DNA from: Pseudomonas fluorescens
Lineage (GTDB): Bacteria > Pseudomonadota > Gammaproteobacteria > Pseudomonadales > Pseudomonadaceae
Assembly (NCBI RefSeq): GCF_902498065.1
Contig: NZ_CABVIR010000008.1
Coordinates: 1-64,000, forward strand
Direction: 5' to 3'
Length of the DNA stretch: 64,000 nucleotides
A program made the position numbers and the translations under genes. The first letter of the stretch is position 1; each line of letters starts with the position of its first letter. Below, piece after piece: positions 876-58,077 of the stretch. The notes below the pieces were generated by a model. The model worked only from the letters and a program-made list of their open reading frames with translations. It searched no databases and had not been told where the DNA came from.

Positions 876-1888
876 CAGTAGTTCTTCCGCAGATCGAGCC
901 CTGTATATAGAGAAGCAACTTCGTCCGAGTAGCCGTTGAACATCTGCGTGTCACGCACATTAGGCTTGAACAGTCCGCTCGGCAGCCGTCGCTCCCGAGC
1001 CTGCGTCCAACGCGGATGATCGACTGTCGGGTTCACGTTGGCATAGAAGCCGTACTCGTCCGCAGCGATGCTTTGCCAAGTAGTGGTCGGCTGCTCGCTG
1101 ACCAGACTGATCCGCACAATGGATTTGACGCTTTTGAAGCCGTACTTCCACGGAACGACCAAACGCAGAGGCGCGCCGTTCTGGTTTGGCAATTCGCGCC
1201 CATACATACCCACCGCAAGAATCGCCAATGGGTTCATTGCCTCATCCAGGCGCAACCCTTCTACATAGGGCCAGTCGATCAAGGCAAAACCGGAGCGCTG
1301 CCCCGGCATGGTCTTTGGATCCTGCAGTGTTTCGAAGCGAATAAACTTTGCCTTGGAGGTGGGCTCAACGGCTTTGAGCAGCGCAGAGATGGGAAATCCG
1401 ATCCATGGAATGACCATTGACCAGGCCTCTACACAGCGAAGCCGATAGATACGCTCCTCCAGCTGGTAAGGCTTCATGAAATCTTCCAGCGCATATCGCC
1501 CCGGCTTACCCACCTCCCCGTCCACCACTACGCTCCACGGCTCGGTTTTCAGCGAACCGGCGTTGGCGGCCGGATCCCCCTTATCGGTACCGAACTCATA
1601 AAAGTTGTTGTAGTGAGTCGCATCCTTGAACGGTGTGATCGCTTCATCCTTGACGGTGACCGCCCCCCACTTGGTAGAAGGGAGTTTCTCGGCAAACCAG
1701 GACGGCGCATTGCCCGCCTCGACATCCGCGTATCGCGCGGCATCTTCAGCATTGGACCAACGCGGCAAGCTGCTGACAGCCAGACCGGCAACGACAGCCC
1801 CGAGCACATGACGGCGAGACAGATAGAGGGATTCAGGCGTGACATCCGACTCATTGCAGTCGGACGCTTTGGGGACTTTGATCAGCAT
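875..1888 (-). CDS. msrP: MsrPQ periplasmic molybdoenzyme
   Basis: MsrP (YedY) is the molybdopterin catalytic subunit that reduces methionine sulfoxide in oxidised periplasmic proteins. The 337-residue product has a twin-arginine signal (SRRHVLG, 24-30, then a hydrophobic stretch), so it is exported folded. It carries the sulfite-oxidase-type Mo-cofactor fold with the presumed Mo-ligand cysteine C152 in RLRCVEAW. It is cotranscribed with msrQ directly downstream. Only about 60 bases separate it from the pssA stop, so readthrough from pssA is possible. Confidence 0.93.
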
Positions 1889-1947
1889 GGCAACTCCGCA
1901 GCATTGGAGGACAGATGCACCAATAGACTGCGGAGTATGAGGGAAAT

Positions 1948-2802
1948 TTACGTGCTTTTGTGCCGACGAAGACGTAACAGATATTGAACCGGACCAGACG
2001 CTGCATAGGCGAGGAAAACCAGCAGCAGAATGCGCGGCGGATCACTGAACACGACAGCAAACACCAACACTACAGCAAGAATCGCCACGAAAGGTACACG
2101 ACCCTTCAAGTCCAGCTCCTTGAAGCTGTTGTACTTGATATTGCTGACCATCAGCATGCCGGCAGCCGCGACCATCAGCGCGACCAGGAACGACATCTTG
2201 GAACCCTGAATACCGTAATCGCTGAATGCCCAGACAATACCCGCAACCACACCCGCCGCAGCCGGACTGGCCAGACCGATGAAGTAGCGTTTGTCCGCAG
2301 TACCTACCTGAGTATTGAAGCGCGCCAGACGCAACGCAGCGCCAGCGACATAAATGAACGCGACCATCCAGCCGACCTTGCCCATATCGCCCAAGGCCCA
2401 GCCAAAGGCCAACAGTGCCGGCGCGACACCGAAGGCGACCATATCGGACAGCGAGTCGTACTCGGCGCCGAAGGCGCTTTGGGTGTTGGTCATACGGGCA
2501 ACGCGGCCATCGAGACCGTCGAGCACCATCGCGACAAAAATGGCGATCGCGGCAAAGGCAAAATACTTGCTCGCGCCAATCGCATCACCGGCACTCAAGG
2601 CGCTCTGGGCACTCATCGAGTTGATGATGGAATAGAACCCTGCAAACAGGTTCGCAGTGGTAAACAGATTCGGCAGAAGATAGATACCACGATGCCGGAC
2701 TTTACGACCTTCAGCGTCATGCCCTTCTTCGATGTGCTCATCGATGGGCAGCAGGCTTTCGGCGTCAGAAGCCTGGTTTGGCTCTTCGGGACGTTCGCTC
2801 AT
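1948..2802 (-). CDS. pssA: CDP-diacylglycerol-serine O-phosphatidyltransferase
   Basis: PssA makes phosphatidylserine from CDP-diacylglycerol and serine, the first committed step to phosphatidylethanolamine. It is the polytopic type II enzyme. The CDP-alcohol phosphatidyltransferase signature is complete: DGLDGRVAR, then G and a D-x3-D pair (about residues 97-122, counted from the upstream ATG). A charged 40-residue cytosolic N-terminus precedes the membrane part. I chose the ATG at 2802 because AAGG lies eight bases upstream of it; another in-frame ATG at 2808 is only two bases from that site. The gene follows ilvC, from which a terminator separates it. Confidence 0.93.
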
Positions 2803-57300: not shown

Positions 57301-57392
57301 CATCGCGGGCAAGCCCGCTCCCACAGGTGATGTGTCGGACCCAGGCTCCATGGTCAGCATCTAACCCTGTGGGAGCGTGGCTTGCCCGCGAT
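57301..57392. repeat. paired REP element (ndh/EF-hand gene)
   Basis: CATCGCGGGCAAGCCCGCTC... (57301-57325) and TGTGGGAGCGTGGCTTGCCC... (57368-57392) form an inverted pair of a variant REP family with GGGC arms. The rest of the 340-base spacer up to 57616 holds no recognisable gene. Confidence 0.88.
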
Positions 57393-57616
57393 ACAGGCGC
57401 CTCGGTCTATCCTGCAAACACATGTGTGTCTCACTGTATCTCCCCCGCGGTTTCGCCCCTTCGCTTACAAATCCCCCCCTGCGCGACACAGTAGCGGTAC
57501 ACCCCGCCCGTTAAATGGCCACATCCGAGCAAGGCACCCCGCCAACTACGGTTATCGCCGCACTTACGTGGCAACCTTTATCGAGTGGTTGCGTCGTGCA
57601 ACCCAGGAGATTTGAA

Positions 57617-58015
57617 ATGTCCCGTACCACCAAGAACACTATCGGTTTGCTCGGCGCTGTCCTCGCTGGCGGCATGATGTTGACCGGCTCCGTTTTCGCC
57701 TCGCAGCCACTGACCCAGGGCTACCTGCTGGCCTCGGCCGAACAGGTGGTGAAAACCCCTGAAGGCAAGTGTGGCGAAGGCAAGTGTGGTGATGCATCGA
57801 TGGCAAAAACCGACACCGACGGCGACGGAAAAGTGTCCCGCGCCGAATTCCTGAAAGTCGCGCCCAAGTCCAATTTCGACAAGATCGACACCAACCATGA
57901 CGGCTTCATCGACGAACAAGAAGCGTTCGACAACGTGAAAGCCAACTACGAAGCCAATGGCAAGAAAATGCCAAAAGGCCTGTTCGAGCACCTGAAAGAC
58001 CAGGACGGCGCCTAA
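57617..58015 (+). CDS. EF-hand protein with EGKCG metal-binding motifs
   Basis: This 132-residue exported protein has a signal peptide (about 1-28), then two adjacent EGKCG motifs (EGKCGEGKCGD) and two canonical EF-hand loops (DTDGDGKVSRAE and DTNHDGFIDEQE). EGKCG repeats mark HvfA-type precursors, whose cysteines are turned into copper-binding oxazolone/thioamide groups by an HvfB (DUF692)/HvfC pair. Neither gene is next to it; it is followed by its own terminator. It may be a calcium protein, a metallophore-like precursor with maturases elsewhere, or a relic of both. AGGAG precedes the ATG. Confidence 0.85.
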   Translation: MSRTTKNTIGLLGAVLAGGMMLTGSVFASQPLTQGYLLASAEQVVKTPEGKCGEGKCGDASMAKTDTDGDGKVSRAEFLKVAPKSNFDKIDTNHDGFIDEQEAFDNVKANYEANGKKMPKGLFEHLKDQDGA

Positions 58016-58030
58016 GTATCCGGGCATCAG

Positions 58031-58066
58031 ACCGCGCTTCTCCATCGAGAGGCGCGGTATTTTTTC
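58031..58066 (+). terminator. terminator after the EF-hand gene
   Basis: CCGCGCTTCTC pairs with GAGAGGCGCGG (one wobble) and is followed by TATTTTTT. It makes the EF-hand gene monocistronic and faces the convergent MCP gene. Confidence 0.8.
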
Positions 58067-58077
58067 GTCTGGCGGTC

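Follow-up and report, generated by a model that had tools for sequence, protein, structure and literature searches.

An unlinked hvfB-hvfC pair probably modifies the products of dispersed EGKCG precursor genes in trans in Pseudomonas fluorescens, under control that is shared between the maturases and the precursors and is probably of the BfmR type. One of the precursor genes is located in the window, the 64,000-nucleotide stretch of contig NZ_CABVIR010000008.1 (C8) of assembly GCF_902498065.1 that was analysed. We propose that its product gives rise to an exported, metal-binding RiPP of the EGKCG (oxazolin/captophorin) type, with a pair of EF hands as fusion partner. The EGKCG/EF-hand fusion itself is already known (PMC12452194, PMC4053335); the new part is an 18-bp repeat shared by the promoters of the precursors and of hvfB.

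The features of the precursor gene and of its promoter are listed in Table 1. The preliminary description had reported a signal-peptide-like start, the EGKCGEGKCG stretch, two canonical EF-hand loops, and a terminator belonging to the gene. All of these were recovered, from the reading frame, the profile matches, and the hairpin, with the signal peptide recognized by eye. An AGGAG-like ribosome site is positioned immediately 5' of the precursor ATG. Another in-frame ATG, at 57515, lies inside the promoter region 5' of the assigned start and is unlikely to be the start codon of the precursor. Terminator-like sites number two in the stretch, compared with a mean of 1.1 in shuffled sequence, and the hairpin behind the precursor gene is much the stronger of the two.

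Table 1. Positions of the features of the precursor gene, its promoter, and the minimal precursor locus. Coordinates refer to the window unless a locus is named.
Feature	Position	Strand	Basis
EfhP-type Buf_EGKCG/EF-hand_5 precursor, 132 aa	57617..58015	+	reading frame, profiles, orthologs
Signal-peptide-like N-terminus, residues 1-28, SVFA^SQ, hydrophobic core	57617..57700	+	by eye
LTQGYLLAS (LxxGYxxA) between signal peptide and EGKCG; candidate recognition element	57710..57736	+	
EGKCGEGKCG, residues 49-58; candidate modified cysteines C52 and C57	57761..57790	+	
EF-hand loop 1, DTDGDGKVSRAE, residues 66-77	57812..57847	+	canonical by eye; Pfam
EF-hand loop 2, DTNHDGFIDEQE, residues 91-102	57887..57922	+	canonical by eye; Pfam
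Terminator-like hairpin 58031-58058 (12 pairs, then ATTTTTT), with T run	58031..58068	+	
Direct-repeat operator candidate GACACA-N5-GGTACAC, 132 nt 5' of start codon	57485..57502	+	
TGTGTC-N4-TGTATC, possible second site, opposite orientation, period 10	57425..57440	+	by eye
GTTAAATGG, candidate -10 element after the repeat	57510..57518	+	by eye; similar at four promoters
Minimal EGKCG precursor and DoxX, shared repeat upstream	L107 (G000 C1:817000-822000), 1799-2571	-	

The precursor protein contains exactly two EGKCG repeats. Pfam EF-hand_5 (PF13202) matches two stretches of it with 35.4 bits (cut-off 25.9), and the protein passes the NCBIfam model KCGExKCG_twice (NF050137, HvfA family) with 24.8 bits (cut-off 19.5). 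The model of the full-length HvfA equivalog (NF050188) gives 23 bits against a cut-off of 95. A sequence search of the PDB with the precursor returned 12 EF-hand chains, the best of which belong to an EF-hand protein and to lanmodulin. Orthologs with at least 84% identity are present in 47 of 298 sampled Pseudomonas genomes, the genome of the window included, and the EGKCGEGKCG stretch is kept in every one of the 47. Of the named relatives, the closest (95-98% identity) include P. fluorescens PS662, P. mucoides, P. mandelii, P. migulae, and P. frederiksbergensis. The retention of gene and motif in 47 of the 298 genomes rules out that the precursor arose by chance or as an artefact. Of 79 named loci that were scored (one of 80 was left unscored), 71 have the motif [LM]xxGY 5' of their first GKCG. 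Among the eight misses are four in which the first GKCG was found behind an EF hand and one broken gene. All three precursors of the genome of the window have LxxGY between the signal peptide and EGKCG.

The precursor gene is surrounded by genes for a DUF1780 protein, a DUF3094 protein, a pyridine-nucleotide oxidoreductase, and a chemotaxis receptor. Between the oxidoreductase gene and the precursor gene, at 57303-57395, an inverted pair of the CGGGCAAGCC/CTCCCACAGG-type repeat (REP-like) was seen by eye. None of the neighbouring genes inspected in the window encodes a DUF692 or DUF2063 protein, in agreement with the earlier claim that no maturase gene is adjacent. The designation of the gene as an orphan holds for its position and fails for the content of the genome. 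The proposed search of the genome for DUF692/DUF2063 genes without an adjacent precursor found an hvfB-hvfC pair on another contig. The pair exceeds the curated cut-offs, which rules out a genome without maturase; the suggestion that the genome might lack any DUF692 protein gives way to the presence of a full HvfB.

The single HvfB of the genome, at C1:462814, matches NF003818 with 418.5 bits (cut-off 360), and the HvfC encoded directly after it matches NF050145 with 252 bits (cut-off 142). The pair spans C1:462.8-464.4 kb. The genome contains no second HvfC match, and no precursor gene was found beside its hvfBC. An acetamidase/formamidase-like gene, named by eye, is located upstream of hvfB. 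Contig C1, which carries hvfBC, is 1.95 Mb long, and the window belongs to C8; in six relatives with one-contig genomes, 1.6 to 3.2 Mb separate hvfB from the window-type gene. Three loci of the genome contain the EGKCG pattern, one in the window, one at C1:1744.5 kb, and one at C1:819.4 kb. The paralog at C1:1744.5 kb has four EGKCG motifs and EF hands and is 44% identical to the window protein. The precursor at C1:819.4 kb is minimal, with 67 residues that end in EGKCGEGKCGAGE, and is followed by DoxX. A second, divergent DUF692 protein (54.9 bits; L002, G000 C3:457349-457951) adjoins a 370-residue radical SAM protein and a small protein, and this locus is possibly another peptide-modifying cluster.

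Comparison by eye of the promoters of hvfB and of the three precursors identified an 18-bp direct repeat, RAYACA-N5-GRTACAC, with a period of 11 bp. At all four promoters the repeat is followed by an AT-richer GTTAAATG-like element. At the window gene, a sigma-70 scan detected no consensus promoter. The pattern RAYACAN5GRTACAC has exactly four sites in the 6.21-Mb genome and its reversed control has none; it was drawn from the four promoters, so that their recovery is built in, whereas the absence of sites elsewhere is not. The sites are at C1:462714, 67 nt 5' of hvfB; at C8:57485-57502; and at C1:819648 and C1:1744865, upstream of the two other EGKCG precursors. An earlier operator pattern, ACACAGNNNSGRTACAC, was rejected: it is exact at the hvfB and window promoters only, and matches with one mismatch number four, compared with five for the control.

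The shorter form RAYACAN5GRTACA is present upstream of all 47 window-type orthologs (reversed control, 0). Scoring of relatives covered 44 of 46 hvfB loci, since no start was found for two, and 60 of 63 further named loci. Strict matches precede hvfB at 22 of the 44 loci, and others have near variants by eye; a form with a 10-bp period on the other strand precedes hvfB at 16 of the 44. The 11-bp form was found at 16 of the 60 further loci, one of which (L160) is a window-type gene. Seven operons in which precursor and maturases are linked have, by eye, GATAC- or GACAC-type repeats with the same 11-bp period. Sites similar to TGTGTC-N4-TGTATC were seen by eye upstream of linked efhP operons.

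The distribution of the repeat was compared in 60 other genomes, comprising 33 of 45 available ones that bear HvfB (44 others with the window-type gene and G046) and 27 of the 32 genomes of the tree that lack HvfB. The 33 HvfB-bearing genomes contain 83 sites, compared with 7 for the reversed pattern. The 27 HvfB-lacking genomes contain 17 sites compared with 13 reversed; of the 17, three fall in promoters of the window-type gene (G183, G233, and G011). Thirty-three of the 83 sites precede the window gene, as expected in genomes chosen for this gene, 12 precede hvfB, and at least 11, among those listed, precede other EGKCG genes. The 12 sites before hvfB correspond to the longer repeat pattern in 12 of the 33 genomes. 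Both this figure and the 22 of 44 strict matches weigh against the shared control. The 27 remaining sites were read individually: 18 are before doxX, and in nine of these cases a minimal EGKCG gene intervenes; one is cut off by a contig end, and eight are elsewhere. Apart from the window gene, hvfB, doxX, and other precursors carry the repeat in genomes with HvfB, and in genomes without HvfB the number of sites is at the control level.

Several promoters with the repeat belong to genes that are not precursors. The doxX promoters with the repeat and no EGKCG gene between are at L280, L281, L282, L287, L288, L294, L297, L299, and L303. Of the eight sites elsewhere, one lies upstream of an OsmC-like gene (L290) and one upstream of a gene for an exported cupin (L304, with two look-alikes by eye). 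An OsmC-like frame, recognized by eye, follows hvfC in P. resinovorans (L168).

A BfmRS-like pair, formed of a kinase and an adjoining OmpR-type response regulator, is encoded 2.4 kb from hvfC. Among the proteins of the genome, this kinase is the best match to that of the P. resinovorans hvf-doxX neighbourhood, with 67% identity (E 1.4e-143). In P. aeruginosa, bfmRS (PA4101-4102) is near PA4103-4104 and the efhP-PA4106-PA4105 operon (PMC4148453, PMC8025907), the promoter of which is among the strongest BfmR targets (PMC8025907). The reported BfmR sites are GATACAnnGC and TACAA-N3-GATACA, and a GACACA half-site is required at phoB (PMC4148453, PMC8025907). The half-sites found here agree with the published ones, whereas the period is 11 bp, compared with the 10 bp implied by TACAA-N3-GATACA. 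The promoter sequences point to a BfmR-type response regulator rather than to a copper sensor, and BfmR control of the four loci appears likely. It is somewhat unlikely that the four loci form one regulon under another response regulator of the OmpR family. Such a regulator would accommodate the difference in period, and regulation of P. aeruginosa efhP by another two-component system, CarSR, has been studied (PMC11559002). However, the GATACA/GACACA half-sites fit the footprint, ChIP, and mutation data for BfmR (PMC4148453, PMC8025907), and the likeness of the kinase near hvfBC to that of P. resinovorans also argues against a different regulator.

The presence of the precursor follows that of HvfB across the genus. 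HvfB was counted when over the model cut-off, and an EfhP-like match when at E <=0.001. Among the 298 genomes, 131 have HvfB and 133 have an EfhP-like match; 130 have both, one has HvfB alone, and three have the match alone, in counts that ignore kinship. The genome with HvfB alone (G008) contains its own EGKCG gene beside hvfB. The DNA pattern of the tandem EGKCGEGKCG occurs in 129 of the 298 genomes, each among the 133 with an EfhP-like match. Kinship was taken into account with a tree of 105 rows based on the flanking oxidoreductase gene, in which bootstrap support was not settled and from which G005 (short match), G107, and G223 were omitted. Following the EfhP-like matches, the precursor was coded as present in every HvfB-bearing row, and among the remaining rows in G183 and G233. 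Nine independent pairs differ in HvfB; the intact EGKCG precursor differs in the same direction in eight to nine of them and in the opposite direction in none (p 0.004-0.008).

Modification in trans predicts that the precursor decays after loss of the maturase. G011, which lacks HvfB, has a frameshifted precursor gene without the core of the signal peptide, and in G237, also without HvfB, all that is left of the precursor at the corresponding site is a C-terminal fragment. G046 has HvfB, a broken window-type gene, and another EGKCG gene. In G183 the precursor is intact and hvfB is reduced to an N-terminal remnant (tblastn residues 1-73; L206, G183 C1:3948000-3955000), which runs into an HvfC whose alignment begins at residue 26. 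G233 has an intact precursor gene and neither HvfB nor HvfC over the cut-off; it counts against modification in trans or reflects a recent loss, and the intact gene in G183 also counts against such modification.

Alternatively, the protein could bind calcium in the periplasm as an unmodified EfhP-like buffer or sensor, and its EGKCGEGKCG stretch would be either a relic or a metal site of unmodified thiols. In P. aeruginosa, EfhP binds Ca2+ and has an effect on Ca2+ responses (PMC9132961, PMC4053335), and its EGKCG cysteines have been proposed to sense iron (PMC11559002); the retention of the gene in G233 would also suit a protein that functions without HvfB. We regard this explanation as improbable. 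EGKCGEGKCG is invariant among the 47 orthologs, and an EfhP-like match is present in only three of the 167 HvfB-lacking genomes, of which one has a broken gene and one a recent-looking hvfB remnant. Furthermore, the G233 precursor (L040) has a Gly-to-Asp change in EF loop 2. The unmodified metal buffer, offered as an alternative in the preliminary description, is disfavoured. The reading of the protein as HvfA-type and modified in trans gains inferential support from the distant HvfB and HvfC, their genus-wide co-occurrence with the precursor, and the common promoter element.

Modification by the other MNIO of the genome, the second DUF692 protein on C3, is very improbable, because that protein adjoins a radical SAM gene, HvfC is matched only once in the genome, C3 carries no copy of the promoter repeat, and the precursor follows HvfB and not MNIOs generally: matches to the HvfB model at E <=0.001 occur in 250 of the 298 genomes, whereas 130 of the 133 EfhP-like genomes are among the 131 over the cut-off.

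Among the 45 HvfB-bearing genomes with the window-type gene, a tandem EGKCG gene is beside hvfB only in G053 (L053) and G100 (L055), in stretches of 2.5 kb upstream and 1.5 kb downstream of hvfB, a few of which ended at contig ends. Both genomes have a different short EGKCG precursor directly 5' of hvfB besides the unlinked window-type gene. A missed linked precursor at hvfBC was considered and rejected; single GKCG frames in some genomes looked like chance. The window-type locus is the sole tandem EGKCG in 18 of the 45 genomes, one of which (G223) is 73% complete. Single-motif matches outside the window-type gene number 13 in these 18 genomes, compared with 8 in the reversed control, and one of the 13 (G062) is near a second MNIO match. 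By a crude motif test, an HvfB-like frame is right behind the EGKCG gene in 46 of 63 more distant named loci and in none of the 17 closest. The more distant loci include those of Xanthomonadaceae and other Pseudomonas. The reach of HvfB-linked loci into these groups makes the linkage of maturase and precursor look ancestral.

Modification, recognition, export, metal binding, and the identity of the regulator are inferred in the following scheme. In the cytoplasm, the unlinked HvfB and its partner HvfC would recognise the signal peptide of the precursor, and perhaps also the LxxGYxxA segment. HvfBC would convert Cys52 and Cys57 to 5-thiooxazoles before export. This step is deduced from the two repeats of the window protein together with two published results. 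The related FonBC pair acted on a substrate carrying two EGKCG repeats, which lost 8 Da, and left a single-repeat substrate unmodified (PMC13097082), and HvfA without its signal sequence was poorly modified by HvfBC, indicating that the Sec signal is leader-like (PMC13419390). After export by Sec, the periplasmic product may hold a soft metal, such as copper, beside the EF hands. One hvfBC operon would serve three scattered precursors: that of the window, the longer EF-hand form with four EGKCG motifs, and the 67-residue form. The four loci would be switched on together, probably by the BfmR-type response regulator encoded near hvfBC. On balance, we lean towards a broader view of part of the P. 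fluorescens group, in which an RiPP cluster has been dissolved into a regulon with one HvfBC near BfmRS and up to three unlinked precursors, two of them with calcium-binding domains, and in which a shared operator of 11-bp period coordinates DoxX with the maturase and the precursors.

The discovery of RiPPs normally assumes that precursor and enzyme genes are together, and BfmRS is known for the control of biofilm formation and virulence. The shared repeat provides a sequence handle for scattered RiPP substrates. If the proposed scheme is true, such products would escape genome mining that is confined to the neighbourhood of MNIO genes, and BfmRS would regulate modified metal-binding peptides. 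The work on BfmRS and EfhP in calcium responses and virulence of P. aeruginosa would then be joined to that on MNIO copper-binding peptides, and the strong induction of P. aeruginosa efhP by BfmR would be the induction of a modified metal-binding peptide. A literature search, with most subscription papers outside its scope, found no paper that joins 'BfmR' with 'DUF692'. Within the literature on EfhP, copper, and RiPPs, PMC12452194 alone, as far as its available text extends, treats EfhP as a likely MNIO substrate. No paper has the precursor protein as its subject, judged by title, in the literature on copper, EF-hand proteins, DUF692, RNA-seq, and P. fluorescens.

The window protein resembles the Buf_EGKCG/EF-hand_5 chimeras of the MNIO survey in its hydrophobic N-terminal segment, short EGKCG part, and two EF-hand_5 domains (PMC12452194). 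The survey describes short EGKCG domains fused to two EF-hand_5, with EfhP as an example, as well as stand-alone precursor genes, and considers the EGKCG part unstructured. However, the unlinked maturase, the several precursors per genome, and the shared operator are not traced in its available text, and the terms 'BfmR' and 'two-component' are absent from its main text. The setting of the window gene is that of the EfhP homolog (Group III) of P. fluorescens Pf0-1, reported in 2014 to be located by DUF1780/DUF3094, without downstream DUF692/DUF2063 (PMC4053335). EfhP of P. aeruginosa (PA4107) is likewise an EF-hand protein with EGKCG repeats, encoded in a BfmR-controlled operon before DUF692/DUF2063; it has four EGKCG repeats and linked maturases, whereas the window protein has two and its maturases are elsewhere. 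The four repeats were suggested to sense iron in PMC11559002, in the available text of which neither DUF692 nor MNIO appears. Oxazolin (HvfA/HvfB/HvfC) and fontiphorin (FonA/B/C), the 'captophorins' of PMC13097082, share with the system described here the EGKCG repeats and the HvfB and HvfC families. In contrast, the captophorins are encoded in linked clusters and are without an EF-hand part; the term 'EF-hand' is absent from the available text of that paper. The BfmRS regulon of P. aeruginosa has the same GATACA/GACACA half-sites, with the efhP operon and its neighbours as main targets, whereas the putative targets in the genome of the window are dispersed and their repeat has a period of 11 bp.
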